Shown here: positions 42,501-61,985 of the stretch, one piece after another
Layout: every line of letters starts with the position of its first letter
Position numbering within the stretch: the first letter of the stretch is position 1
From: Polytrichum commune
Taxonomy: Eukaryota > Streptophyta > Polytrichopsida > Polytrichales > Polytrichaceae
Reading direction: 5' to 3'
Assembly (NCBI GenBank): GCA_950295325.1
Contig: OX485804.1
Span: 66,564,033 to 66,628,032, forward strand
DNA: 64,000 nt
Made by a program: the position numbers and the translations under genes
Notes under the pieces: model-generated
The model's input: only the letters and a program-made list of their open reading frames with translations
Databases searched by the model: none
Told to the model about the DNA's origin: nothing

Positions 42501-44354
42501 ACCTCCATAGATGGTCATGAGTCACCTTGTAGACTTAGGTTTTTAACACCAAAGTGCCTACCTTGCTCATCACCTATGTTATTAGAGTAACATTTAGCCT
42601 AGAATGCAAGGATTTTCAACGCTTTAAATTTGGGAGTCAATGTTACTTGCATGTATTTTCTGCAGATGAATAGATAGTGTAATACTTGTACGCTTGATTT
42701 TGCACTGTTGCTTAGCAATACCTTAGAATAACAATCCCGTCTTGCATTTTGCTAGACCAAAACACTTTCAATTGATGTTTTTGAGAAATCTACAACATGA
42801 AATTCCAACAACCTTTGAATGAGCAACAACATTGAGATGAGTGGGTAGCTTATGGTATCTGTGACGTTTAGCAGTGAGTATATTCAAAAACAACAATTTG
42901 TATTGTTGAAGGTAAAGAACATCATACTCTGCTACGAGGATTTAAAAAATGACATCATTATGAAAATGTTGCAGTTTTTACGCTTGCATTCAACATAAGT
43001 CTCTCAATTAAGTTGATGAGGTTCTAGACAATCAATCTTTTTTTCAAGTTAGGAGGAACATGGGGTTGGAGTGACTACCTACAGTATGATAAAAAGCTAA
43101 ACAACGGCTTTTCGAATTATGAATAGAGAAACAAAATATGAGATTATGCAAATTTATGAATTTCTTTTACTTTTATTACAATATGTCAAATATACTAGTA
43201 GCCACGTGTGCTCATTGTGATCTTTTCGGTGGCTCTGTGTTTAGGCCCACATTGAGCATAGCTAACGTGGCGCCAACACTAATTTTTGTTGAGGAGAATA
43301 TTCAAAAGTACTTCAAGGTGAGCCTATGACCACTTTCATGTTGCATTTGTGTTTTGTCATATAGGAATCTGTGAGCTAAGTTATTTATTATATTACTTGA
43401 ACAAAGTCATAGTGAGATTTCTATTTGCTCAGGGACAAAATGTCGCAAAGTATGGTCACGTTTTAAACCTTGTATTGTGGACAACGGGAGTCATCCATGC
43501 ATCAAGTTTTGTGATCCACAAATCACATATGTCTTACTTTTCTCTTCAATAATCATTTCTTACATCCTCAATGTGAGGATGTTGGGGTTAAACTCACAAA
43601 TATTCAATTTATGTTGACTTCAATCATTTTCTCATTTTTAAAAGCTATGTCCGATAAAAATAATAGGGTGCCTTATATTATTTAATGGCATAATATAAAC
43701 ACTATATTCGTTAATTGGAGACTTTGGAAAGTCTCAAAATAAATTGGACCCGTAGTTTCGGATGCGAATATTGTGAACGTAGGGAACATGGGGAACAATG
43801 GCAACATAATGTTCGAAAGATCCATATGTGATGAATATATATGTTTCTAAATATAGTAATTATTTGGGGGATAATCAAAACTACGCCAACACAATATTCC
43901 AATGTCACAAATTCACAATTATTTTGTATTTTTGATTTTGTATTGAACAAAATTAATGAATCTATAAATAGCCATCTGATTTTATATCTAGGGACTCTTG
44001 GATGCGTATCCCAAACATAACATCTTAGCCAATTGTGGGTGAATTGAACGGCACATCCCAAACGCAACAATATTAAAATAATTTGACAGTGTGTATAAGA
44101 AATTGCAAATTAGCATCTGCAATATAATTATATAGTTTGGACTCCACATCCGTAAACACAAACATATAAAAAACATTTGATAGCGCATGTGAAGTTGGAT
44201 TCCACATCCGTAAATCAATACAATCATGATATATAATTGTAATCTATAAAATTGCTATAAAATGTGTCTAATATAGTATTCGACCCCAATGTCATATATT
44301 TCATGAAAAACCAAGACACATTTCAAATAATTGTGGTCCAACCCTACGTCAATA
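39504..44354. other. Long spacer, no gene supported
   Basis: Many short ORFs but no domain or exon chain recognised. A stretch at 43138-43450 has short coding-like pieces that I cannot place. From 43.98 kb onward, diverged half-copies of the 22-bp palindrome appear (CATCCGTAAA at 44147-44156 and 44205-44214). This suggests that the left edge of the accessory unit lies near 44 kb. Confidence 0.45.
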
Positions 44355-47300
44355 TCATTCTCCATCTTCATCTTCAGCTTCATTTCCATTCTCGACATCG
44401 TTTTCTGCAGCAGCAATACGTGCCAAGTTGTCTTTGGCAAAATCTATATGTTTTTGGGGGATGGTCATTGTCTCTGATTTGGAACCTTTGCGTGGTTTCC
44501 AAGCACAAAGTATGGTATCTGTGTTTATCCATATTGGTTCGTATGCTGAGTCCATTGTCCATTTGAAACCTTTTTTGGTGTCCCACCCTAAATATGTGCG
44601 GAGCACATTTTGATCTTTGGTGCTGGGACGGCAATATTCCACCTCAATTTGATGAAAATTTGGGCTAGTTGGAACAAAATTTGGTGATGACAATGCTTTT
44701 ACCAACCAAATCGGTTTAGGGTGCTCCTCATCTCCAGGACGTACGAGGATCATATACCCTTCGTAGCAATCAACAGCCACACGAAATGATGGAGCCGGAC
44801 GATTACGAGCTGGGCCAACATAATGGTCGTCCGCTGCGAACTCTTCACGGATGTCCCCATTGTCGAAGAACATGGCCTCAGATTCCACGATTGTCACTCG
44901 GCTTTGTGGCCAAAAACCTTGTGTCAAACATGAATGTGTTTCGACATCGGGTGCTAGCAATGCTGAGCGAATGCGATCCCAGTACGTAATCAATGGTTCG
45001 TGGGTATCCCGAACACGCCTTGTGATGTCTTCCTCGCACAATTCTTTCCAATATTGGATGAATCCGGATATACCTTTGATGATTTCTGGTCCATTCCTCA
45101 TGGGGTTGGGTTTGCAAGGCTTCGGCTCCCCATCAGGTAGCATACATTTGCCTTCTTCGTTTTGGCGCCATACGAGTATCCCTTCCTCTGGACCCCAATC
45201 CGGGGAAGTGCACAAAACTTTGAATTGCATGGCCGGCAAACCATCATCACGCATATAGAATCGGAATTGTTGAGCCTTGGTATGGCCCACTAAACGGTCA
45301 CCTCCCTTAAGAATGAATGGTTCGATAAACGCTTTGAAATCGGGCACTTCTTCAATCAAATGCGGGATGACTGGCACATTATCCAAATCCATGTATGATT
45401 TCATGAGAAGAGGAATCGTCGGAAAATCCTCCTCGTGCAACTTCATACTCCAACGTCCAAATGAAGCGTCAATGTCATCATGCGTGTGGCCAACCATCAA
45501 AAAAGACACAAACACTTCTTTGAAAATGCCCTTGGCTACGAGCAATGACCAAAAACAAAACACGTATCGACATTTGTTGTCTTTGGCACAATTGTCCAGT
45601 TGCACATGTAGAGTTGGAGGCAAAGGTTTAGCAAGAATGGTTTGTTCAGGCGGTTCTTGCAGTGACGATAGACATACTTCTTTCCCCTCTAGCACAGCCT
45701 CATAAATCGGTGTTGTTCCACATCCAACAAAAAGAGCGCGAGAGGATGATGTTGGCGGACTCTCAAGATCTCGTAGAAGTTTTGCAAAAGACCCTACGGT
45801 ATGATTGGCGTCGCCTGGATAGAAATCCAAGCCATAATGTGCATACTTGACGTCCACATGGCCATGTGCGATCATACCTGAATTAAGACATACAAATGAG
45901 AAGTACATTCCAATATCATTTATAATAAAGAAATTCAATTTTTCCGCAAGCAGGCCAAGAAAATGAACAAACACTTACGGATGTACATCCGTAACTCTTA
46001 ACGATGAGTATGTGGGTTCGCAAAAAAAATGTGAAAACCAACGAACCTGTGACAGATATTGGGAGCTTGAAATATCCATCTGTAGCCTTTATTTTCCGTG
46101 CATAACAAGGGCACGCAGTCTTCGCATGGTCCATTTTGTCATGAATGATTGTCAAAACCTCATTCGGCCTCATTATCGATAATGCGCGATTCTTGTAGTA
46201 GTCTTGACGGTGTGCCTCTTGGTTGTTGACATGCTCAATGTATTTCCGTTGATGTCTATTGTGCGACTCAGTCCCTATGGGATGTGCATCTCGAAGGCCC
46301 TTGTATTTTTCACAAGCAGAACACCTGGCAAACTTATCCCCAGGCCTCTTTGTAATGTACTCTGCAAATTGTTGATTCTTGATCACACTCAATTTTGACA
46401 ACGAAATCGGCCCACATCCAGCCTTTTCGCCAACCTCATTAACATCCATAAGTATGTTCTTCCATTTTGTCCCTGTAGGCAAAACCATCTGGACAACCTT
46501 TTCCCCCGACGGCAGAGTCCGTGTTTTGTGTGGCATCGCATCTGCTAATGGCATAATGATGGTTGATAGTGTTGCAGTTGCTTGGAGTGTTGCCTCCCTG
46601 GGCTTCTTTGTACCAGAGTTGCCATGGAACCGAGAACGCCGTCCTTGCAGCGAGTAGTTCCGGAACCTATAAAAATCTGCCTTTGAAACTGCATGTATAA
46701 TGTACCATGCCGTGCAGCATACCTCTATATTTTCCAAGGTCACAACCTTACGACCTTCGGCATCAAAGTGCATGTTGCGATGGACTTCAAGTTTCTTTGC
46801 AGATCGCATCCGAAAGTCCGCAAGCCACATCTCTTGTCTCAAAGATTTGATTTTGTCACGGGGAAATAGTTGGCAACACATTTTTGCACAACAATCCTTT
46901 GTTGCTACGGACCTAATAGATGTGTCTCCCAATGTTAGATCTCGACGACGTTGCGTGGGTTCACGGGGCACGCGAACAGAATCATATTTACGCCGACCTT
47001 GTCTAGGACGCATTGTGGCGAACAAAGTCTTTTGTATTTCCTCAAAACGACGTGCATGATTCCACAAGCTGACACCATCGTGAAGAACACTTCGCAACGG
47101 CCATCGACGAAGAGAGAATCTCCAACCAGGAGGTACTTCCAATGGATGTAAGGAGTTCAAAATGCACACCCCAACATCTTCCTCCCCAAGGGGATTTGCA
47201 TCAATACAGTCCATAGGATTTGAGTTCCTACAAACACCATTGGCCACGGGGACGCCGTATCCATTGACTATGACAACATCAAGATCAATCCATTGTTCCC

Positions 47301-47451
47301 GCGAATAACCCTCACATGTTGGTATGAAATCATCCTCTGCATTGGCGACACCAATTGTAGTTTCATGTTCCATAACACCTTCAAATTCGCTAGCATAGCT
47401 TGACGCTTCCGAAGAGAACTCGAATGCACTATCTCGGACGTTGGAATCCAT
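44355..47451 (-). CDS. DUF7869-type protein, probably transposon-derived
   Basis: Two exons on the minus strand, 46047-47451 and 44355-45877. The GT-AG junction is in phase and gives 975 residues. I chose the ATG at 47451 (MDSNVRDS); an in-frame upstream ATG at 47511 would add 20 residues. The N-terminal 150 residues are acidic and unrecognised. A Zn-ribbon-like RCSACEKYKGLRD (376-388) is followed by YYKNRALSIMRPNEVLTIIHDKMDHAKTACP. After the junction come GMIAHGH, VQLDNCAKDNK (560-570) and VGHTHDDIDASFG (598-610). These spaced blocks match the DUF7869 proteins that are multicopy in some plant and animal genomes. The acidic residues D437, D563 and D602-605 could form an RNase-H-like catalytic triad (inference). 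The single intron holds a copy of the 22-bp palindrome. Confidence 0.82.
45974..45995. promoter_or_regulatory. Palindrome copy in the DUF7869 gene intron
   Basis: TTACGGATGTACATCCGTAA at 45975-45994 is fully self-complementary. Compared with the common core, the four central positions are changed in matching pairs, so symmetry is kept. It lies in the 169-bp intron 45878-46046. Confidence 0.85.
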
Positions 47452-47592
47452 GGCCACTACAAGTGACCCACATGAAGAGTATGTCAAAATATCCCATTCA
47501 ATAAATGTCATGGATAGTCCTAACGCTTATTGTCAATGAAACACAATGTCAACAATAGTGGATTTCATGGCCTGGAAACAAAGACACATTGG

Positions 47593-47819
47593 TATACGAA
47601 CGCGCGTACGTATATCTCCATGTAACAACATTATCAGTGCAAGCACGCGCATACATATGTCTTTATTTGTTCATAGTCGGCGGAAAGGTCCAGACAACAA
47701 AAACATGACAGTTTTATGGGCGCGCACCCGTAAATCTCTTCGTGGTCAAAGAGGTCAATATCATGCGCAAATGTTTTCGCAAACTATACAACATAGGTAT
47801 ACGGACGTGCGTCCGCAAA
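47593..47819. repeat. Diverged palindrome copies upstream of the DUF7869 gene
   Basis: Three 22-bp sites, at 47593-47614, 47713-47734 and 47798-47819, keep the ACG...CGCG...CGTA layout with several substitutions. Another weak copy lies near 47640. They begin about 140 bp upstream of the gene's ATG. Confidence 0.7.
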
Positions 47820-48050
47820 CATCCGAATGTCAAAAGTCAGTGTTGTGCAAGACACACAGAGGTTTAGGAAACCAAGATGTCCAGGTGCCAGGTTCCTACT
47901 GTGTATTATGAATGTCAAAATATTATACTATGACACATAGGGTGATGTAAGCTTAGGGTTTAGGGATCTTATACCTCCATTGACCGTACAGTCTCAATGT
48001 AATATTCTACATGGCACATAGTGAAAAGTATGGAACCAAAGGTTTGCAGG

Positions 48051-48540
48051 TTTACGGATGCGCGTCCGTAAACCTCTCTGTACCTCATTACTAGCACAAA
48101 TAGGTTTAGGTTACTGGACGTGAGTCAGAAAATTTTCATGACAATACAGTCTCGTTGGTATACTATACATGGCAAGTGGTCATGATGTCAGCTCAGGTGC
48201 AATACCGAACAATGGAACAAAAAGGTGCAAAAGTTTACGGACGCGCGTCCGTAAACCTTAATGTACATGAAATAGCTGAAGTATAATTCTCACAACAATA
48301 GATATCCAATCAAGCAAGAGGTTTAAGGTTTACGGACGCGCGTCCGTAAACCTCAATGTAAATGAAATAACTCAAGTATAATTCTCACAAAAATACATAT
48401 CCAATCAAGCAAGAGGTTTAAGGTTTACGGACGCGCGTCCGTAAACCTCAATGTACATGAAATAGCTCAAGTGCAATTCTCACAGAAATAGATATCCAAC
48501 CAAGCAAGAGGTTTAAGGTTTACGGACGCACGTCCGTAAA
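48051..48540. repeat. Palindrome array 1, 95-bp period
   Basis: Sites at 48051-48072, 48234-48255, 48329-48350, 48424-48445 and 48519-48540. The last four are spaced exactly 95 bp apart. The spacer (AATAGCTCAAGT, CAAGCAAGAGGTTTAAGG) is also repeated, so this is a true tandem array of about 95-bp units, each centred on the palindrome. The core is TTACGGACGCGCGTCCGTAA, extended by matching bases to GGTTT...AAACC. It lies 0.6-1.1 kb upstream of the DUF7869 gene. Confidence 0.95.
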
Positions 48541-51500
48541 CCTCCGTGATTTGCGGCGCCATAATAGGACCATTTCACCAGGAACGATACTTGCCATAAA
48601 CAAAAATCAATCACTATAAGGATCCAGACAGTGCAATCCACATAAAATTGGCTCCACTAATGGGTTTATGGCTTGGAATTTAGTGTTTAGGGTATAAAAG
48701 GTCCATTGCAATAGGATCTGTACCTGCACGAAATAAACATCCAGAACACTACAAGGGTCCAAGCAGCGCAACCCACATCTGAGATGCAAAAAGAGTCCCT
48801 TGGTGGAGGGGTGTCCCCTTAAGTACTGATCGTTTCCCTTGGATCCGTTTTCCAACATAGGATACTAGCCACCATCTACGTCCTATAAATAAAAACCTAA
48901 CATTACTACATTCCGTGTGCCAGCCTTACAATGGAATGTGTATTCATAGTGGACAACATGCATAGACGATGAGTCCACATAATGACAAAGCAAAAGGCAT
49001 CTACGTATTTATGGTGGACAACAAAGAAAATAGGCTAATAATATATGAGCATTGAACATTGTTGAGGGTGGTTTATAATATTGAAGTACCTAATATTGAG
49101 AGGTCATTGTAGAACTAGGAGACAGAACATTATAGTGTCGTGTGAAACATCAACCACAACAACAACAATAGTACATGGAGTATAAAAATACGTGTCATTC
49201 AAAATTAAACTAGCATCTATTTTATTGTTTTGCATACGATGTAATGATATTCACTCCAATATCATGTTATCTCCTCTCATCTAGCATTTAAACTAGTAAT
49301 TACATTTGCCACCACCCTACCATCCAACCCGTTTAATTTACCCACTTTTACACACCTATACATAATTATACTAATACGTACACAAACTTTGAGCGCCTAG
49401 ATGCCATGAAAATAGCACATCTATTGTCATAGGCACTATGGGTTGCTTTAAAATCAATATTCTCAATTTCCTCTCTTAACTTTAGGGCCCCCTTCAATAC
49501 ATCAACATTTATTTCAAAAAAAAAAATACTAGCATTCTTAATGTACTATACGTGAGACAAAAAACAATTTTTAGTACCCCATGTACATTATCTACAATAT
49601 TGACTCAAACAATAGCAGTTGTTGTTCTAAGTAACATTATGAGCCCAACAAACCATAATGGAGAGAAGGGGAGGGTAGGGTATCCAAATATTATAAAGGC
49701 AAGCAATTTTAAGTTGGTGACAAAAGGGGGATACTCTCATTAGTTCATACGTGGTACCCTAAATCCTAAACCCTAAACCCTAAACACTATACCCTATACC
49801 CTATACCCTATACCCTATAACCGCCCACCCCTGAACAAACACAACGACATACGGTACGCATGGTTAACTGAATAACTCCCAATACATGTGTAGCCTTAAG
49901 TGGAAGTAATTCAAAACTATATGACTACCTTTAAATTTTGTAAAAGAAAACCATAAACATTTCAAATGTGAAGCAAATTTAGGGGTAACCTTACCTTTCA
50001 TTTTTTTAAATCTTTCTTTGGCTTTAAACCATTTGCTTTAAACATATACTTTTGATGAAAGGTTTTGAAGATCGTATATTGGTATTCTATAATCGAGTCC
50101 TAAACACAACTCACCACCGAAAGAAAACTCCAAATATAAACAAGTTTGCTACTACTTATAAGCGATAATACAAGCTGAGGCCTATGTGTGGAAGGATTGG
50201 ATGGATCCGAAAGGTTGTTTAATGTACAAGAGGGATGTACATTCAACACATACCCATGCATTTTGTTTTAATACAAGCTTAGACCTATGTGTGGAGGGAT
50301 TGAATTAATCCGTAATGTTGTTTAAGGTATTACAAGCATATGAATTCTCCCCATATCTCGATGTTTCGGTTTTGTTAATTGCGTTTCACAACTTATTGCG
50401 ATAATTGAGGGATTCACAAGTATTTCTTGGCAAAGTTTCATGAGAATTTGTGGCCAATTGGTATATTGCCCCAATTGCATTTGAATCCCACCTTTGAGAA
50501 GAAAAAGAATTCTTATACTGAAGTTAATCAACAAGACATCCTTTTATTGAATATTATTATTATTCTCGAAATATAGAGTCCCCTCCATAGCTCGGGGGGT
50601 GCACTGTACTAAACATGTACGAGTTATACGTGAGTGCACAGGAGGGGTATTGATTTGGACCTTGCCGTATTGCATATACATATGGTATACATGTTATAAT
50701 TTATAGTTACGTACATATATGGAAGGCCTTTAAAAAGTATAGAATAATTGTACTTGTATGGTATTGTTACTATACTATATATCATAAGTGTTCATATTGG
50801 ATAAGTTTTCATAAGGTTTGGTTTGTTGGGAGAGTTTATAGGATGCGGAGGAAGTTTGGTAATCGTTGGGTGGAGTATAGGGATCCATTTGACTTGATGG
50901 ACCGTCCATCAAACGTGGAGATTGGTTTATGTTGGTATCAAAAGGGGCTAACAACAAGTGGACATATGATCTTATTGATCATTCCATGGTAGACTTCGAG
51001 ACAATAATTGCATTTGTATACTTATGTTAATGACTCTCGGGGGGGGGGGCAGTCATTGGTTGGAGTAGCAATATACGTGCAAACAAATGATAGGGTATTT
51101 TAAAAACATGGGGGCAAAAAATTATAAATGGACTTAAGAGTAATATAGGGTATCAAAAATGGCACTGGACATCTTTAAAGTAGTATAGGGTATGGAATAA
51201 TTGGTAATTTGGAATTATAAGTAATGCAAGCCATTTTTCTATTAACCCAAAGTAGAAATTTATATAATGATAGCATGTGAAAAAAAATAAGAGAATTGAA
51301 AGTAATACCCCCCTATATCCTTATTTTTTTAACACACTGCCCCCCCGAGTAATGACTAATATATATGAATGGATGTTTTTTTGTGTATACATATTGTTGC
51401 TTGTATATTTATTGTTGCAATTGTATGTGTATTACTTCATTTCACAAAAAATCACTTGTATATATTAGGGGGTTTTTAGAGTATGCAGTGAACGCACGTG

Positions 51501-52130
51501 ATTCTAGGTTTTAATGAAAGGTGCTCCCCCACTCTCCATAGAGGCCACACTAGAAATTGTAGTTAGTTTCTCTCATTGTTTGGAGTTCCAAAATGATATT
51601 ATTATTATTATTGATGTCATTTAATTGTTGACAATGACATAATAATTTACTCAACCTCACACCCTAATATAATTTCCTAAAATAATGAATACTTTCTAGA
51701 GCTCGTATGAATATTTCACTCATTATCAAAAGTGAAGAGAAGAGGCAACGAGATGGCTCATTTTATATTTAGAGTGACATTTAGTGTGACTTTTAACTTG
51801 CCTTAGCATAAACATAAGATGTTATTATGACATAATATGATAATAAAATCACCAAACTAAGTATAAATTAAACCCCTATTTCAATACCAAATATAGACCA
51901 GTAGGGTGATGCCACGTAAGGGTATAGGCCGGCGATTGGGCGCGACGTTTGGGGTAGGGACACGTGGAGGCACGCCATTGTTTTAGGGTTCCAAGTACTC
52001 CAGCACCCTTTCGCCCTCGCTCTTTGTGCTTTTCCTTCCTTCTCTATCATCTCTTCCTTCCGTTCCTTCTACTGTTGCTCTTGCTTCTCTTGCTTTAGGG
52101 TTATAGGGTTTCAAAGTACACCAGCTCCCT
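48541..52130. other. Spacer between the two palindrome arrays
   Basis: AT-rich, with no gene recognised. It contains a telomere-like tract (listed separately). A diverged direct repeat lies at about 50166 and 50270 (TAATACAAGCT.AG.CCTATGTGTGGA), and a G-homopolymer at about 51039. Confidence 0.5.
49752..49822. repeat. Interstitial telomere-like tract
   Basis: CCCTAAA units (CCTAAACCCTAAACCCTAAA) run directly into a tandem of CCTATA/CCCTATA units. CCCTAAA is the standard plant telomere repeat on this strand. Only a few perfect units remain. Confidence 0.85.
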
Positions 52131-52470
52131 TTTGCCCTCCTCTTCGTGCTTTTGCTTCCTTCTCTTGCAACTCTTGTTTATCTTGTTTCTCTTGTTTCTC
52201 TTGTTTCTCTTGCTCATCTGCTCTTGCTTCTCTTGCTCATTTGCTCATCTTCTCTTGCTCATCTGCTCTTGCTCATCTTCTCTTGCTCATCTTCTCTTGC
52301 TCAACTTCTCATCTTCTCTTGCTCATCTGCTCATCTTCTTTTGCTTCTTTTGCTTCTCTTCACTTTCTTCTCTTGTTTCTCTTGCTTCTTACCCTTATCT
52401 TCACTTTCTTCTCTCTCTTCTCTTGCTTCCCTTGCTGGTCTTGCTTCTCTTTCCTCACAATGCAAAACTC
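52131..52470. repeat. Pyrimidine-rich CTTGCTCATCTTCT repeat
   Basis: Tandem, shuffled copies of TTCTCTTGCTCATC-like units, almost all C and T on the + strand, with open frames in all three phases as a result. It may be the leader region of the downstream gene. It is followed at 52490-52501 by TGACGCGCGTCA, a 12-bp palindrome sharing the centre of the 22-bp site. Confidence 0.85.
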
Positions 52471-53284
52471 ATTCTTATTGGTCAATTGTTGACGCGCGTC
52501 AGAGCTAGAGTAAGTTCTCCTTGTTTGCTGCTCATTTGCTTATTAGCTCATTAGCTCATTAGTAAGTTTTGCTTGCTGCTTGCTTGCTTGCTGCTCATTA
52601 GATCATTAGGATGCTCATTGTTGCTTGCTACTGCTCATTAGGTTGTTTTCAGTTGTTGATCTCAGTTGTTGCAAGGGTAATTAGTGTTTCAGATGTTGCT
52701 CATTAGGGTTTCAGTTGTAGCTTCACCATGTAGTTCATTATATTTTTTGCATACAAATCAATAGTTTCCTTTCACTTGTGTTGCATGAATCTGATTTATG
52801 AGCAACTTTTTTGAGTAGTTCTCAATGTTGAATCATGCATGTGCACATTGAATTACTAGAGGTTTCTGACCTCAATTTTATTGTTCATTTGCAGTTGGTA
52901 TTAGCTGCAGCAGGAGCAGCTAGTTGTGGTTTAGGAGCAAACACTCTAGAAAGGTAAGTTTTTTAGAACATTGCAATTGCATTTTGTATGATTGCAATTT
53001 TGGGTTGTTGTGGTTTAGGGCTTAAGGTTAGCATGACAGAATGTGAGATTCCAGTTTCAAGGAATTCTGAATTTGTTTAGTACTTTGTCTATGGCTACAT
53101 TCTAAGAATCATTTAGTTATGGACATGTCAGTGTTCTGAAAGTGCCTTATGTTGTCAATCTGCAGTGCAGTGTTTGCTATTGCAGTGAAGTAAAATTGCA
53201 TTCTTATTTGGAGGGCAAAACCATATTGGACGACAAGGTAAAGTCCCGAAAAACACGGAGCATTAATGAAAACATTGGAATACG
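52471..53284. other. Possible leader of the ParB-like gene
   Basis: No ORF of note. Exon-like GTAAG and CAG junction strings (for example CTAGAAAGGTAAG at about 52947-52959 and TTTGCAG at 52889-52895) could be untranslated leader introns. This is inference only. Confidence 0.3.
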
Positions 53285-53790
53285 CAAACATTACAATAGC
53301 CTTTATAATCCTCAAAGTTTACGGACGCGCGTCCGTAAACTTTGTGGATCTTTGTGTAGGTGAGAGACAAGCCTCTCAAACAACATATTACGCAAACGAA
53401 GCCAAATATTGTAATATTAGGCATATTAAAATAGCCTTTATAATACTCAAAGTTTACGGACGCGCGTCCGTAAACTTTGTGGATCTTTGTGTAGGTGAGA
53501 AACAAGACTCTCAAACCGCATATTACGCAAACGAAGCCAAATATTGTAATATTAGGCATATTAAAATAACCTTTATAATACTCAAAGTTTACGGACGCGC
53601 GTCCGTAAACTTTGTGGATCTTTGGGTAGGTGAGAGACAAGCCTCTCAAACAATATATTACGCAAACGAAGCCAAATATTGTAATATTAGGCATATTAAA
53701 ATAGCCTTTATAATACTCAAAGTTTACGGACGCGCGTCCGTAAACTTTGTGGATCTTTGTGTAGGTGAGAAACAAGACTCTCAAAAATAT
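53285..53790. repeat. Palindrome array 2, 135-bp period
   Basis: Sites at 53318-53339, 53453-53474, 53588-53609 and 53723-53744, each exactly 135 bp from the next. Here the core is flanked by matching bases to AAAGTTT...AAACTTT, so these palindromes are longer than those of array 1. The spacer is repeated too (CAAGCCTCTCAAAC, AACGAAGCCAAATATTG). Because both strands read alike around each site, ORFs on both strands appear repetitive. None is considered coding. Confidence 0.95.
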
Positions 53791-53852
53791 ATGTAGGTGA
53801 GAAACAAGACTCTCAAAAAAATGTAGGTGTGAAACAAGACTCTCAAAAAAAT
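53757..53852. repeat. Short tandem repeat, 3 copies
   Basis: Three copies of about 30 bp built on TGTAGGTGAGAAACAAGACT and CTCAAAAA. They are derived from the spacer of array 2 but lack the palindrome. Confidence 0.85.
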
Positions 53853-53905
53853 ATTAACCGTAACTTGAATACATTGATATTTACCACCATACTATCTTTG
53901 CGAAG

Positions 53906-54050
53906 TTTACGGACGCGCGTCCGTAACTTATAGAGATATTTGAGTATATAATATACGCGTTATGCGTATTTGGAAGAAATGTATCTTTTCATTTGGATCC
54001 AAAAATGTAATTGAGACAATTTGGAAAACTTTACGAACGCGCGTTCGTAA
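53906..54050. promoter_or_regulatory. Two palindromes just upstream of the ParB-like gene
   Basis: Sites at 53906-53926 (common core) and 54029-54050. The second reads TTACGAACGCGCGTTCGTAA at its core: G to A on one arm is matched by C to T on the other, so it is perfectly symmetric. It ends 57 bp before the start codon at 54107, a position suited to an operator. Confidence 0.75.
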
Positions 54051-54106
54051 AGTATGATCTATATCTTTTGCCAAGAATTCTAACTTATCTATCTTATCAT
54101 TTGCAA

Positions 54107-57100
54107 ATGGCATCTAAAAAGAGACATGCAATTGAGATGTTCGCAGAAGCTCTCATTCCTCCGCTACCAGAAGCCATCAAAGACATAAGTCCCAACGACC
54201 ATTACAAGCCACAAGATGAAATTGTGGATAATTGGACAGTATTGGTAGAAAAGGACGAGAAAGAAATATTTGTGCTTAGATTTGCATATCAAATGAAGAC
54301 GGACATAGATGAAGCTGAGAAGTGGATAAAGCTTAAATCGTGGACAGTAGAGTGTGCAGTGGCACAAGGGGATTATGTAGTAATAGACCTTGAGAAGAAA
54401 GAAGATCGGGTCACTTTCATTTTGCACGAATCCTACCACCCCTTCAACAAAAATGAGTGTGAGAATGCTAGTACAGATGCGGCTTGCTTCAATCTCCAGA
54501 CGGAGTTCCAAGACTATGCATGCAATGCACCTTGGACGGGTAAGCGGCTTGGACGACTCTTGAACAATGTAACAAGAGTAAATGGAGCCTTGCTAGAGGC
54601 CAGAAAGGGGAAAGATAAGAAAAAACAAGTCGTTCCTGAACGACCTAAGCGTGTGCCTAAACCAGTGCCGGAATCCTCAAGGCCCTCGCAGAGTGGTGCA
54701 TCAAGAGGGAGCAGACAGGCGAGTAAACGCTCTCACTCGCAGATGGACTCTGGACTAACAGAGGGTCCGGATGTCAGCTCTACACTGACTGTCGCTCCAC
54801 TCCTCAAAAAGGGTCAACGCCCTGACGCCGAACTCTCAACAAAAATATTCCAAGAGTTCGATGAGAAGACGAAGGGATGCTGGCCCCTTGGCAGGTATTT
54901 TACTTTCGAAGTAGACGTCTACAAATGCCACAAGGGCACCGAAAGTATGAATACCAGAGCAAAAGAAGAAAGCGGTGTATGGTGGCAAATGAACAACATC
55001 ATGAACAACCCCAAGTTTGACAGGCAAACCATTTGTGTGACACCAAAGGATCCTATCGTTGAAGTCAACGAAAAAAATTGGCCGATTCTCAAGAATGGAG
55101 AGTTCTACATTGTCGACGGCCAACATAGTGTAATGGCTGCAAAAGCTCTCCTTGAAGACGACGAGTGGAAAAGCCCATTAAAGGAGACAATCCGATATTG
55201 GAAGGCATTTGTCGTGCATTCCAAGGACTCGAACCAACTCATAGCAATATCTGCCTTCATGAACCAGGGGAATAAAGTGAGGCAGTTCGAGGCTTCATGG
55301 GCAGCCAACATCGTGGCTGGGAGGACCTTGTGGGTGGAGCACGAATGTCCCCCAAAAGAAAGAGATAATGCTGTCGTGAAGAACCCAAAATGGCAGGTAT
55401 GTTACTCAAATAGATTTACGGACGTGCGTCCGTAAATGTGGCCCTTCTCCTCCCACTGCTTCAAATATTTGAATTTAATTTGTACTGAATTCAATGTTCT
55501 GATTTCTTGCAATTCGCGCCTCTTGCAGACATTCAGCAATGCCATATTGACAAAGTTCTCGAGTATAGACATGAAGACAAGCGGCATGAAAACAGTGCAT
55601 GAATTAAAAGGCGAACTCAAGCTCATCACTGCAACAGAAGAGACGTGGTCAATATGGTTGCGACTTTTCGATGCCCACAACAACGGCGACCTTGTCAATC
55701 CAGATACGGAGAACACCTACAAGAGCGACTCAAAAGTTAAGGTACCACCAATCCTGCGAGAGTTCTTTCGTCCCCTCCAAGGATTGATGGACTCGGAGCT
55801 GTACAGGGCAGCAGAACACATTCTTCTAGAAACTCCTAGAAGAACTCTGCCCTATCCCAAAATCTTTCTGAAGCGGCCGAAGCACATGAAGCCATCCACG
55901 TACCACATTAAGGAATGGTGCGATTACAGAAAGAAGAAGACCATGGCTGTAAGGGAGATTAGCAAATTGCTACCCACCCACAACCTCATTAATAGTGATG
56001 GTGAGATCGTGTGGGAGAATTGGAGGAAGCTGAAGGGTGAATACCACATCAATGGCGTCTCAATGCGAGCTTTGATAAGAGGGGCATCATCCTTCCTTGC
56101 CCAACGATCCAGAAGGAACGAAAAGAAGGGATCCATCGACGAGAGGGAGACAGGGTTGTATGTTCACTTTCTCGATAGGAAAAAGAACGCGAAATTTGGA
56201 GGGTTTGCAAGATTCTGCACGGTCGCAAAGGGCATGAAGTTCGGCGCATGGGACACCCATGCTTCAAGAGCCTCTGTGAGAGATGACCCCAGGGGTTGCC
56301 CTTTCGCCATTTTTGATTTTCGTGCAATTCCCGGAGCATGGAAGCAAGACGTTGCGGGAGCACCCTTCTACGAGCCCTTCTTAAAAGCCTTCAAGAGCTA
56401 TCGCTCGCCTGCCCTCTTCGAGCCTCATGTGTGGTTATGGATTGTAGAGCAAGAGAGGTCCACATCCATTGTCCATCTGTACACATCAACGATGGACCTC
56501 GAATACGATATGTACCACAGCACCTACATCCCAGCGAAGACAGAAGGGATCACTTTCATTCAAGAGGCAAGGGGGGTGAAGCAAGTGGGAGCTGTGCAGC
56601 TTTATTTCTTAACACGCAAGTCTTCCCCAACTGGGCGATTGCCCATTAAACCACACGAGGTGTTCAGGAAAGTCTATTCGTTGCCGCCACCACATCCCAA
56701 GGAGCTTGTTGAGGAGACAATGCATGCAATCTATCCGGCGTTCGAGCTCCGGATGGACTTTTATATAGGGGTCTTGAAGGCTTTAACTGTCATGAGTGAG
56801 ACAGTTTACAACGTCTTCGGAGGCACGAAGTTTATGTATGCAGCACTGGTGAGTATTTGTTTGTCTTTCAACCCACCTATCTTTTGCATAGTTATTTTAC
56901 GGACGCGCGTCCGTAAAAACCCAGTATCAGGTGCATGTGAATTTTACGACCGTGCGTCCGTAAAATTGTCCAACTTTTGAGTGGTGGTTTTACGGACGCG
57001 CGTCCGTATAACGTGTTGACATCTAGCCTCATTTATATGCAATCACCACTATTGTTCTTATCTAATTTTCTTGTTATGGTCCAGATGCTTGGCTTGCAGG

Positions 57101-58515
57101 TGAATTCTTTTGTGCAGGATTCCGACTACGATGACGCCCATACTCACAGGGTAATGGCCTCCAAAATGGATATCCAGGACATCATGGACGTCCTTACACC
57201 CCATCCTGTTGTGCCTCTTTCTTCTAGAGAAGAGGCAATGCCCGGAATGGAGACAGACCCTGAAGAGGACCAAGATCCCAGTTCCCCAAGAGCGCAACCC
57301 TCCACACAGGAGCCTTTACACGGCCTTGTTCGCGACCCAATTAATCCAAGTGCTTTCCTGCTGGGAACAGACGACACGGATGCGCAGGAGGCACGCGTGA
57401 ACTTCACTCCGATAAGGGTCCCTCATACCCCTGTTCTCTCACCTTTTGGGACTCCCACCTCTCGAGTTGGATTTCCCTCAACTGCGGGTCCATCTCGTGC
57501 TCCAGGAGTTATGGCCGAGAAGGATGTGGACCTTGCGGCAAAAGGCGGATGCACCGCTTCATCTGGAGGGGGGTCTCAACATTCAGATCTACCCCCTATG
57601 GAGGGGAGGGATGTGCTGGAGTTGATATTGAGGCCTGATATCTCTCTATATCGTGAGAGTCGACGAAAGAGGAACAAGACGCCATACAACGAATACCCTG
57701 AAGGCGCGGTCTTGGAGCTCTCCGATGAAGACGAGGATGAGATTAGGATTCACAATGCCATCTCTGCCTTGCCTACGGAACCTGGCAAGGTGAAGAAAGA
57801 GCCGATGTCAGTGTCCGAATTGGACGAGAAGATGGAGAGGCGAATGAAGGAAGAGCTTGACCAACGGCTTCGAGAAGCTAACGAGGAGCACGCCAAAAAG
57901 ATGGCCGCCATCCAAGCTGAGATGGAGCAAGCTAGGTTGGAGTCTGCTCGAAGGCACGCCGATCTCATGGCCCAAAATCAACAGTTCTTGGCCCAAAGTC
58001 AACAATTTATGAGCCTGATGCAGAGCTTGCAGGCAAGACCCCCTGTAGTCTATACAGCTCCCGATGCCGTCATGTCTATGCCCCCCACTCTCATGCGGCC
58101 TCCGTCTAGTAGCCATGCGGTGTATATACCCGAGCATGCTTATCCAGCCCCCGCGTTGATTGTCCCGCCCTCTCCCCTTGTTGTCGCCACTCCAGAGGAG
58201 CCCTCCTCTCATCCTACAGGAGTGGAGGAGATACCGGCACGTGACATGGCGGGTGCCGCCGAGACAGATGTCAATGAAGGCAATGCCCCCATCGGCGATG
58301 AAGATGTACATATGCGGGGCAGCCAAGACTCCACAGATGAGGATCAGCCTTACGTGGATACTCAAGGGTCGCAAGCGGCTGGAGACACCTTGTTGGTGGT
58401 CGAAGATCTGGACAATTTTGCGGACGCGCGTCCGGATCCTGTGCCCATGACGGGGCCAGGTGAGGGAGGCACTGCTGGCGCGGACCTCGCCCTTGAAGAG
58501 GTAATCAACCTTTGA
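54107..58515 (+). CDS. Large protein with ParB-like DGQH motif and C-terminal coiled coil
   Basis: Three exons, 54107-55396, 55529-56848 and 57100-58515. All are phase 0 with GT-AG borders, giving 1341 residues. The third exon could also start at 57118, through an alternative CAG. The stop follows EEVINL; a GAG|GTAATC donor there leaves room for further splicing. Seen: an N-terminal part without known motif, a basic S/P/K-rich linker (about 165-215), then GEFYIVDGQHSVMAAKALL (331-349). The latter resembles the ParB/DGQHR-type fold, where an acidic, Gln/Arg-rich helix binds a nucleotide or cofactor. The region 431-870 is a large conserved-looking domain I cannot name. Residues 871-1110 are P/S/T/D-rich, with a long coiled coil at about 1110-1183 (EKMERRMKEELDQRLREA) and an acidic tail. 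Both introns contain palindrome copies, and one copy is inside the last exon. The function is not known. Confidence 0.75.
55415..55436. promoter_or_regulatory. Palindrome copy in intron 1 of the ParB-like gene
   Basis: TTACGGACGTGCGTCCGTAA at the core; one central base departs from symmetry. It lies 18 bp after the donor in the 132-bp intron 55397-55528. Confidence 0.85.
56896..57010. repeat. Three palindromes in intron 2 of the ParB-like gene
   Basis: Sites at 56896-56917 (perfect), 56943-56964 (one arm changed) and 56989-57010 (edge changed). The spacing is about 46 bp, all within the 251-bp intron 56849-57099. Confidence 0.9.
58417..58436. repeat. Palindrome copy inside the coding exon
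   Basis: GCGGACGCGCGTCC lies in frame in exon 3 of the ParB-like gene and encodes NFADARPDP about 30 residues from the C-terminus. The flanks are changed (TTTG / GGAT) in a way that removes the TAA of the palindrome arm. Confidence 0.7.
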
Positions 58516-58527
58516 GCATGCCTCCCA

Positions 58528-58546
58528 CGTTACGGACGCGCGTCCA
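58528..58546. repeat. Palindrome copy between the ParB-like and HAD genes
   Basis: GTTACGGACGCGCGTCC followed by a changed right arm. It lies just after the ParB-like stop codon and 340 bp before the HAD start. Confidence 0.75.
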
Positions 58547-58888
58547 AAACTTCCTTGTCTGCCTCCTTCGTGGCGTGTGTATATTATCGAGTTCAATCCT
58601 CGACTTCGCCCGGCGGGTGGATACAATTTTGTTAGCATAGATTCCATTAACTTCAACAGATATTTTTTGCGACAATGTATATTATTCACCAAATGTATAT
58701 CACCAATTACATTAATACCAATTTTTCAACTGGATGGTTCGGATTATTTTTGGCCTTATAATTTGTGTTGAGTTTATCCATGCTTGTCAATTGGTTTTCT
58801 TGAGTAGTACCATTTACCTAGATAGAATGTTCCATCACAGGGTCCGTCGGAGATATGTCGCAACCCCGCGGGAAAACCAAGCGCGCCC

Positions 58889-59608
58889 ATGATGAAACCG
58901 TTCATAATATTTGACCTCAATGGGGTGCTTTGTCAATCCAAACATATCTCGAATAGTGCGTCCAAGGGGCCCTTCCGTAGTCCACAAGACATGGATTACG
59001 GCGGACATTTCGATACTCTCATAAATAAGAAGGTTGTACGTGCCCGCCCCGGTTTGAGGAGCTTCCTTCGTGAGGTCCTTGGCTTCGCCCATGTCATCAT
59101 CTGGAGCTCTATGCTCATGGACAACACGAAGGCCATCGTCGGTTTCCTTTTCCGAGAACTCGCAATGCCATGCTTGCTTCTCGGTCAAGAACACTGCGAT
59201 GACCTCTATGACCGTAGTGGCAATATTGTACCCAAGGTCGGAGGGGGTCGTGGGCCTCAATTCTTAAAGGTCCTGAGGAAGAACCTCTGGGTGGGCGTCC
59301 CTATGTTGGAGGGGGTTCCCCACGGTTGTTGGCCCACCCCGGATAACACACTCCTCATTGACGACAGCCCGGCAAAGAGTATTCTCAATCCCCCGGGCAA
59401 TTGCATATTCCCGGATCCTTGGGAAAGCGATAGAAATGACAACTTTCTAGAGAGTGAACTAGGACCCTACATTAGGAGGCTTGCCTATCACCCCGGAAGT
59501 GTCCCGGATTTTGTGCTCTCCAACCCAATTGGCAATAGGCCTCTAGGCCCACAAGATGAGGAATTTAGGAGATTGTACGGCTACGCTAGACTCAATAAAT
59601 TAATATGA
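58889..59608 (+). CDS. HAD/FCP1-like (NLI-interacting factor type) protein
   Basis: A single exon of 239 residues with two adjacent ATGs (58889 and 58892). Motif I is FIIFDLNGVLC (nucleophile D9; the usual second Asp is N11). Then come RARPGLRSFL and motif II IIWSSM (70-75). A conserved Lys is in the FLKVL area (about 127), and motif IV is LLIDDSPAK (155-163), followed by NPPGNCIFPDPW. That is the layout of SCP/FCP1-like HAD phosphatases. The DLNG form is known in a group of plant members, so it does not prove inactivity, but general acid catalysis would be impaired. It ends naturally at a TGA after NKLI. It belongs to the palindrome-bearing unit by position and strand. The substrate is unknown. 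Confidence 0.8.
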   Translation: MMKPFIIFDLNGVLCQSKHISNSASKGPFRSPQDMDYGGHFDTLINKKVVRARPGLRSFLREVLGFAHVIIWSSMLMDNTKAIVGFLFRELAMPCLLLGQEHCDDLYDRSGNIVPKVGGGRGPQFLKVLRKNLWVGVPMLEGVPHGCWPTPDNTLLIDDSPAKSILNPPGNCIFPDPWESDRNDNFLESELGPYIRRLAYHPGSVPDFVLSNPIGNRPLGPQDEEFRRLYGYARLNKLI

Positions 59609-59736
59609 AAACTTTGATGATTTTGGGTTTGTACTTGGACTCTCCATGTAAATATCTAACATTTCTCCCCTTATCTTTGTAATGTATTTTTGTGTCTTAG
59701 TTGCCTCACCAAGCACCCAAAAGTGTCGTCAATGGC

Positions 59737-60597
59737 ATGTCTGCATCTCAGGCAGACACCGGCTCCCTTTCCCTTGGTATGAGCGACGTTGCAATGCCTT
59801 CACTATTCCAATATTCGGCCGTCGATGCTGCCTCTGCTGTTGATTACTCCAAAGACTCCGGGTTTGAAGACGGAGTCGTGGATAGCCCTCCTGCAAAGGT
59901 TGCAAAACTCAATTACTCTCCAAGTCCATCTCCATCTCCCCTCCGCAGTGAGAAGCACGTCCGTAACCCACGGTCGACCAGACGCCTTTGCATGGATGAA
60001 CCCCAAATTGATGTCCCGGCGTTTGCGAACGTCCCTCTCGGGCTTGTATCTACACCCGTCGATGTCCCAAAAGCTCTAACCAGCGCCCCAAAGGCGAAGG
60101 TGCCCAACTATTGGCATTCTCAAGTTTTTCCTTGATGATTTCCGTGTATTAGTGCATTTCAACTTCTTGGGTTTTTCGGACTTCCATCCGTAACTTGTAA
60201 CCACTTATACTAACCCACTTCATTATATATATTTATGGTCATTGTTCAGACCCCAATGTACACGAATGTGGGCCGGGCATCATCGACTTCGTCATTGGAT
60301 AGGCGAACACTGAAGACAGCTTCTTGCGAGTCTGATCGTTGTTTGGCCCTACGGAAGAGTGCAAGACGTTCGGTTTCCCAAACGCATTCGTATTCCACTT
60401 ATTCGGAAGGGGGTCGGCAAATATGGGCAAATGGCGCATATTCGGGGTCAACAAATAAACAAGGTTACAGCCGCGGACCCGAGATCTTTAGAGCCATGGA
60501 GGCCATGAAAGCAAAGGAACGTGAAACGGCCGTAAATGCTAATAATAGTATTGCAAAAGCAAAAGTAGTGAGTCGTAATCATGATCCGAACGTATAG
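59737..60597 (+). CDS. Unrecognised two-exon protein
   Basis: Proposed exons 59737-60123 and 60250-60597 (GT donor after CAA; TTGTTCAG acceptor; phase 0), giving 244 residues. Without splicing, the first part stops at 60135. The N-terminus is Ser/Asp-rich with SPSPSPSP and a KVAKLN stretch. The second exon is basic and Ser-rich with a final helix-like region (IFRAMEAMKAKERETA). An acceptor-like TCTTAG just before 59701 means it could also be a 3' part of a longer transcript. No family recognised. It is the last gene of the cluster. Confidence 0.45.
60174..60196. repeat. Diverged palindrome copy in the last gene's intron
   Basis: TTTCGGACTTCCATCCGTAA keeps the CGGA...TCCGTAA arms but not the CGCG centre. 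It lies in the proposed intron 60124-60249. Confidence 0.55.
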
Positions 60598-61985
60598 GCT
60601 ATATTAACATACATGTAGTTGTGGAATTATGTTTCTAGGACTTTCGCCTAATATTGGATATTCCACTTGCATTTTGTACTTCAACCCCTATTCAATAAAT
60701 ATGATATTGATTTTCCATATGCAAATGTTTTCATATATCCCATTTTCTTATTGTTAATGTGTAGTTCCATGCATTTGAGTCTCTTATTTGTATCCAAAAT
60801 TGGGAACATAGCATATTTTTAGTGTTTTCATTCCTATAAATGTGAAAGCCACGTCCTTAAATAGTCTCAAAATTAACAAAAAGTCTCCAAATAACGAATA
60901 TAGTGTTTATAGTGATGTATACAACAAAATTAAGTAAGTTCATAGGTTTTATAGTAACATAGGGTTATGATTATAAGGGGCAAAGGACTTTAAATATGTT
61001 ACATGGATATAGGATGCTTGATGATTGGGATGCATTAGTATTGATTGATGAATTGTATGAGGTTCAATCAATAATCCTTATGGATTATGTTTATACACCC
61101 CCTATTTTGGATGTTTTTAGGCTCCTCCGCAGTGAAAGCCCATCAATGTCAATGAATTTCTGTCCATAACCTTGTCCTTAAATTGAATGTTTGGATTAAT
61201 GTTCTTTGAAGTCCCTAAGACATGAACTTTTCTTTTCCATTTCTATTTTACTTGAAATATTATTGTACAAAAAAATATATGCAAAAGCAACCAAACTCAT
61301 TAGGCTAAGTGGCATGTAAAGCAACTTGTTAACTTATAGCTCCAATGGAACTCTATTCTGCATCCTCTATGATAAGAATCAATAATGCAACGAGTATTGA
61401 AATCAACATATATGGCTCATTATTTTAATTGTTATAGGAAATCTTTGCATTATGTGTTTGCAAAATACTTGAGTCTTGTGACTTCGCCATGGTAGATGAG
61501 AATACGATCTAAGTTTCTTGTTCTTAATACCATGTTTTGTCGCTTGTATGCGGAGGATGCCTATTCTACTCATAAGATTTCCTATGTCAATCATTGTTAA
61601 TGATTAGTGATGCATGCAATGAGTTTTTGAATTGCATGGGAACTCCCACAAAAACATGTGGCCATGTTATTTATGTTGGGAGAATTAGAAGGAAGGGAGA
61701 TTTGATTATGAGCACAATTAGACGAGGAGAACAAATGAAACGTGCTATTTTGAAGGCTTATTTTCTATTGGCGTACCGTCCATCTTTTTTTGAGAATTTC
61801 AGGGCTTTACCAAGATCAAGAAAATCTCAATTAGAATGAATTTTACAACTGTGATTTGTAGAGGTGTTTAAAATAATTTGTTTGTACTAAGTGAAATTGG
61901 GAGTGTCGGATTTGTGTATGTTTACAAAAGTCATAGAATATGAAATGTTGGCAAAATTGATGTAAAATGTAGGTTTTATTCCGTC
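60598..61985. other. AT-rich spacer, no gene seen
   Basis: No ORF with recognisable features and no copy of the palindrome. The right boundary of the accessory unit probably lies at or before the start of this stretch. The last part is the upstream region of the kinase-NB-ARC gene. Confidence 0.5.

Follow-up and report, generated by a model that had tools for sequence, protein, structure and literature searches.

A repeated 22-bp palindrome within a 17.2-kb multi-gene DNA transposon of Polytrichum commune as a possible family-private tag

In En/Spm (CACTA) elements, repeated short binding sites for TnpA lie in a subterminal position. For the Mutator-like VANDAL elements of Arabidopsis, two papers describe the targets of VANC proteins as family-private motifs that lie in non-coding sequence, including introns and regions upstream of genes, spread by tandem repetition and turn over rapidly, and they describe the transposase as the better conserved of the two proteins (PMC5735166, PMC10398659). 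According to the former, these short motifs all point the same way in their arrays, and VANC homologues have the domains DUF1985 and DUF287 (PMC5735166). KDZ and other TET/JBP-carrying DNA transposons of fungi are presented in a further account as multi-gene elements with chromatin-related genes (PMC12730594). Here we describe a 22-bp palindrome that recurs in a 17.2-kb DNA transposon of Polytrichum commune. The transposon has a leftward gene for a DUF7869 protein, which is probably the transposase, and a rightward gene of several exons. It lies in a window of 64,000 nucleotides (assembly GCA_950295325.1, contig OX485804.1, positions 66,564,033 to 66,628,032, forward strand), which is the whole stretch of DNA analysed, and coordinates without a prefix are positions in this window.

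A first-pass annotation of the window had listed about 21 occurrences of the palindrome, confined to a single gene block. Scanning with the exact core at up to 3 mismatches gave 18 matches, all within the 17.2-kb element, with 0 expected and 0 in 100 shuffles. With the central two bases free and up to 5 mismatches, the whole-window scan gave 22 sites, from 45975 to 60174-60193, and no site elsewhere in the window beyond the element (43698-60907); the 46,790 window bases beyond it had zero sites at up to 2 mismatches. The 22 sites comprise all 21 places listed earlier plus a degenerate palindrome at 60174, between open reading frames (ORFs) 7 and 8, and both the approximate number and the confinement were thereby borne out. 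Most of the starts given earlier refer to the 22-bp form and so fall one base ahead of the 20-bp core, and the site at 53906, which had been labelled a variant, is perfect. Spacings of 95 and 135 bp reflect tandem arrays, and in units of these and other lengths, compared by eye, the palindrome is the only common part.

This block proved to be a mobile element, one of many copies across the genome. We compared the window with other copies from the same genome (L001-L006). Copies at C1:27.95 and C1:36.95 Mb set the left edge at 43698, and the same two copies set the right edge at 60907, as does, to within 3 bases, a third copy (C1:37.11 Mb), of which no left part was found in the stretch compared. 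Target site duplications (TSDs) of 4 bp were found at four insertions (TATA, CACT and ATGG, and TCAT in the related family F502). Because its edges are sharp, its ends are inverted repeats and its 4-bp duplications are specific to each insertion, the 17.2-kb unit is a DNA transposon, with the inverted termini, TSD and many dispersed copies of the terminal inverted repeat (TIR) type. Among the matches listed, exon 1 of the rightward gene has 97 copies, on all seven large contigs and at 77-100% identity, some of them partial. One further copy scores equal to the window's own and many others are 99-100% identical, which suggests that the window's family has probably moved recently.

Nearly all of the 408 Mb of genome scanned is in these seven contigs. 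At up to 3 mismatches, the window's palindrome (M1) has 6407 sites, including some of the similar motif M2, versus 2 for the reversed control. Proximity to genes was checked for 71 distinct exact M1 sites, taken from the matches listed in one stretch of one contig. For 70 of these, a copy of the rightward gene was no more than 15 kb away (2% of the stretch expected), and the 71st lay in a truncated copy of the element. Among these sites, then, clustering around the rightward gene was found, and an even spread through the genome was not. Nor did the arrays resemble an ordinary satellite, since their units differ and no single conserved tandem unit was present.

Other DUF7869 elements have palindromes of their own. 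Nine more DUF7869 loci (L007-L015), picked from 150 scored matches chiefly because their frame lengths and scores differed, fall into about six families: L008 is 98.6% like L013, L009 is 97.5% like L010 where compared, and L011 has the same palindrome as the latter two. Repeated palindromes were present in eight of the nine, mostly unlike the window's in sequence (M2 to M6, Table 1). As M1/M2 and M4/M5 are close pairs that differ at one position per half and cross-score, there are four unrelated classes, including that of the window. In a motif-by-element matrix at up to 2 mismatches, each element scored for its own class only; the total for random palindromes of the same composition (20 per motif) was at most 1. 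Genome-wide, M2 with centre AT had 1141 sites at 1 mismatch (0 in the reversed control), M3 had 13499 (1), M4 at 2 mismatches, which takes in M5, had 1502 (6), and M6 had 1129 (0). The half-sites of M6 are without CpG, so that the CpG richness mentioned in the first-pass annotation is not an essential trait.

Homologous positions could be compared in the families F547 (L018, L014), F502 (L016, L007) and F692 (L017, L008), of which the first two have the window's full gene set and the third a partial one. In the rightward gene, the intron that separates exon 1 from ORF4 carries M1 in the window, M2 in F547, M3 in F502 and M4 in F692. Equivalent positions in related families are occupied by other palindromes, and the window's palindrome is near-fixed within its family. 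Identity to the window is 84% in F547 and 66% in F502 for the DUF7869 exon, 71% and 66% for the first exon of that gene, and 41% and 34% for rightward exon 1. The window and F502 are also identical over at least 16 terminal bases, yet their palindromes are unrelated. With DUF7869 exons and a terminal repeat that diverge this slowly between the two, the transposase is unlikely to be what reads the palindrome. The ends of a further family, F588, are partially similar to the window's terminal repeat. F692 and F677 have 85.6% DNA identity in the DUF7869 gene and little else in common (the F677 copy looks decayed on its other side), and the palindrome in their homologous DUF7869 intron differs at two symmetric positions.

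Site symmetry was analysed in 89 contexts, which remained of 219 sites once those whose flanks resembled each other had been removed. Both half-sites are near-fixed, while symmetry at the central dinucleotide was 0.43 versus 0.48 in the control. The pair adjacent to this free dinucleotide reached 0.96, equal to its control, and past the core symmetry was slightly raised at offsets 12 and 13 (0.51 and 0.47 versus 0.32 and 0.35). Near-fixed half-sites, a free centre and the value of 0.96 for the adjacent pair are better explained by a DNA-bound dimer than by a hairpin. The earlier proposal of a dimeric recognition site thus gains support from the sequence, both from this arrangement and from the different palindromes of related families. 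Its second part, that the protein is carried by the block, may be too simple, as M3 is also found in an element resembling Mutator-like elements (MULEs), in which no protein in common with the DUF7869 family was detected. Some M1 sites (L021:3302 and L024:8083 among them) have long, site-specific symmetric arms of up to 11 extra pairs past the core, and look as if they were born by inverted duplication.

The palindromes are mostly in spacers and introns. Coding cover was taken as tblastn-covered sequence, which is a lower bound, and sites were counted at up to 3 mismatches. Across six elements, 3 of 149 sites fell in coding cover: 1/20 in the window, 1/26 in the element at C1:37.2 Mb, 1/21 in that at C1:30.5 Mb (counted minus its left end), 0/28 in F547, 0/40 in F502 and 0/14 in F692 (covered in part). 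Coding cover in these elements was 50%, 50%, 36%, 38%, 43% and 25%, respectively. The window's single coding-region site, 58418, is in ORF5, and each of the four inferred introns holds at least one palindrome.

In our preferred reading, to which we give a probability of about 0.5, the palindrome serves as the private tag of its family and is recognised by a dimeric protein, encoded in the element, whose binding activates or protects copies of the same family. The protein would bind both half-sites, sequence-specifically, on all copies of its own family, and bound copies would stay transcribed or unsilenced, much as VANC proteins act for VANDAL elements. Dense arrays would provide avidity, and a private sequence would lessen damage to the host. 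The reader would more likely come from the fast-diverging rightward gene than from the slow-diverging transposase. A broader version, which we hold more tentatively and at somewhat less than even odds, is that each family pairs its private 22-bp dyad with its own reader, that the two are re-coded together, and that this independent, re-targetable self-recognition may pass between unrelated transposons.

Several observations weigh against a private tag with an element-encoded reader. Profile searches against Pfam and PDB gave no DNA-binding domain in the rightward gene, and AlphaFold single-sequence models, with a mean predicted local distance difference test score (pLDDT) of 33 and 34, were of too low quality for a fold search. 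L012, though a DUF7869 locus, has one isolated 22-bp palindrome and none that is repeated. The right end of F692 is unlike the window's terminal repeat, so that terminal conservation is limited to F502 and, partly, F588. Both differences between F692 and F677 are of the CpG-to-TpG type, which mutation bias favours. When whole open ORF5 frames are counted as coding, 7/149 sites are in coding sequence, all in ORF5, among them 2/28 in F547 (L018:7453, L018:7850) and 2/40 in F502 (L016:6217, L016:6286), and these four are probably coding sites; the site counts moreover include array members, which are not mutually independent. The VANC motif is a directional one of 9 bases, while ours is a 22-bp dyad.

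Further evidence on this side comes from MULE-like transposons, which we take to be such from familiar motifs plus a sub-threshold SWIM match. M3 occurs in four of them, L031 (C1:3487500-3496500) and the partial loci L032, L034 and L036, together with a second palindrome, M7 (CCTGTGCGTnnACGCACAGG). L031 and L032 had been taken for their M3 sites, and L034, L035 and L036 were chosen for their MULE-like rightward gene, which has a DGNHR motif. All three of the latter have palindrome arrays, two with M3 and M7 and L035 with a new, less perfect one. The M3 sites of L031 are in the divergent spacer and in one inferred transposase intron. No protein common to F502 and the MULE-like element was detected, with L032, L034 and L036 available as partial loci. 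The presence of M3 in these elements points to a host reader, hijacking, a shared system or undetected homology.

A reader encoded by the host would account for the occurrence of M3 in two transposon types that are unrelated and between which no shared protein was detected. Here a host family of DNA-binding proteins, either activator or silencer, would read the palindromes and the elements would track it. However, elements would not be expected to multiply sites in tandem for a hostile reader, and the tested DUF7869 elements score for a single class each, which makes this explanation quite unlikely. The sites might instead serve transposition, with the transposase or an accessory protein pairing or loading the ends as in En/Spm, or serve a partition of the ParB/parS kind. 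Although the element encodes a probable transposase and has the degenerate site 60174 towards its right end, the strong sites are central and intronic rather than subterminal, and the palindromes of the window and F502 are unrelated despite their conserved DUF7869 exon and terminal repeat; a role in transposition is therefore unlikely. For the partition variant, a Pfam search of seven homologues gave no ParB match (the nearest was one DUF6551 match, E=0.12), and PDB sequences likewise gave none. The label 'ParB-like' in the first-pass annotation, based on the short DGQH motif, was thus not upheld.

That the palindromes act in RNA, as hairpins in introns or leaders involved in splicing, export or small-RNA production, would suit the many sites in inferred introns and the slight extra symmetry at offsets 12-13. 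We regard this as improbable: the pair flanking a 2-nt loop could not form and is nevertheless conserved like the outer pairs (0.96), a value equal to its control, which argues that sequence rather than pairing has been kept, and arrays also occur in spacers in which no gene was found. Least probable are selfish mini-palindromes or an ordinary satellite without function for the element. Tandem arrays and high copy number are what these would produce, but not the proximity of the listed sites to the rightward gene, array units of different length with only the palindrome in common, or a motif that changes by family at a homologous intron.

Table 1. Features of the transposon in the window, and palindromes of other DUF7869 loci.
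Feature	Window position or locus	Strand	Remark
Whole DNA transposon	43698..60907		17,210 bp; edges from copy comparison
Target site duplication TATA	43694..43697 (left), 60908-60911 (right)
Left terminal inverted repeat, AACACTATATTCGTTAATTGGAGACTTT	43698..43725	+	F502 family end near-identical
Right terminal inverted repeat	60880..60907	-	imperfect
DUF7869 gene, second exon	44355..45877	-	PF25273, E=4.8e-40
DUF7869 intron	45878..46046	-	palindrome 45975 inside; F692 reads through without intron
DUF7869 gene, first exon	46047..47511	-	conserved in F547, F502, F692
Palindromes 5' of DUF7869 gene	47594..48544		weaker sites 47594, 47714, 47799; also 48052; 95-bp array 48233-48544
Palindromes 5' of rightward gene	53290..54050		includes 135-bp array
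Rightward gene, exon 1	54107..55396	+	'ParB-like' by DGQH motif only
Phase-0 intron	55397..55528	+	palindrome 55416 inside
Rightward gene, exon 2 (ORF4)	55529..56848	+	no known domain
Phase-0 intron	56849..57084	+	palindromes 56897, 56944, 56990
Rightward gene, exon 3 (ORF5)	57085..58500	+	site 58418 inside
Phase-0 intron	58501..58840	+	palindrome 58530 inside
NIF/HAD phosphatase-like exon	58841..59608	+	PF03031, E=4.4e-13 for frame from 58826
ORF7 and ORF8	59701..60597	+	conserved in F547 and F502
M2 palindrome, TTACGAACGnnCGTTCGTAA	L014
M3 palindrome, TTTGGGTCGnnCGACCCAAA	L007
M4 palindrome, CCACGGGTGnnCACCCGTGG	L008, L013
M5 palindrome, CCACGGGCGnnCGCCCGTGG	L015
M6 palindrome, GGTGAGGCAnnTGCCTCACC	L009, L010, L011

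The gene models are predictions based on open frames and splice signals (Table 1). The splice in the DUF7869 gene is supported by an uninterrupted homologous reading in L008, and the second exon is probably the core of the transposase. As regards a DDE-type transposase, one D and one N are invariant in seven DUF7869 sequences, which also have a GHTHxDxD block in common, and profile searches gave no solved relative. The four exons of the rightward gene, the last of them NIF/HAD phosphatase-like, join in phase 0, and the context of the first donor is present in four of five homologous loci scanned (L021, L022, L016 and L017, not L014). A YEATS domain in exon 1 was dropped as a candidate, as the match was weak (E=0.02 in the window) and seen in just one of seven homologues. 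DLNGV is the form of the NIF/HAD motif in the window and in L016, L018, L021 and L022, and DVNGI that in L019; in DLNGV, Asn takes the place of the second Asp. A pattern search for relatives in viral contigs matched 91 stretches, of which zero were confirmed.

A telomere-like ACCCTAA array occupies 49756-49822 in the element's spacer. Beyond the element, the window contains near-palindromes at 1059, 14183 and 39378 (e.g. ATGGATGAACTCATCCAT) that are alike and possibly belong to another family. At L003:1743, a 26-bp palindrome, GTGGACTTCCATGGATGGAAGTCCAC, adjoins DUF7869-like remnants of a neighbouring element.

Were the private-tag reading true, sequence-specific self-recognition by transposons would not be peculiar to VANDALs and would have emerged in a different kind of transposon too. 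The families of this one genome would then offer a ready-made set of motifs with matching candidate proteins, from which a recognition code could be derived directly, with possible use as programmable activators. In the literature searched, which had few subscription papers among it, we found neither DUF7869 nor a multi-gene element of this kind. Pfam includes a KDZ model; no TET/JBP or KDZ domain was found by Pfam in eight window frames, with KDZ checked at E<=1 in the DUF7869 exons. The window element is a multi-gene DNA transposon like the TET/JBP elements of fungi, and differs in its 4-bp TSD from Kyakuja (7 bp) and Zisupton (8 bp) (PMC12730594). It resembles En/Spm in having repeated short sites within a DNA transposon, but its sites are internal and intronic, its ends start AACACTA and its TSD is 4 bp. 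Compared with VANDAL/VANC, the MuDR transposase there has its counterpart in a DUF7869 protein here, and the VANC domains DUF1985 and DUF287 had no Pfam match at E<=1 in the frames scanned. In anatomy the two are nonetheless alike, with family-private motifs in non-coding arrays and introns (the ORF5 sites aside), a rapid turnover of these motifs and a conserved transposase, here a probable one.

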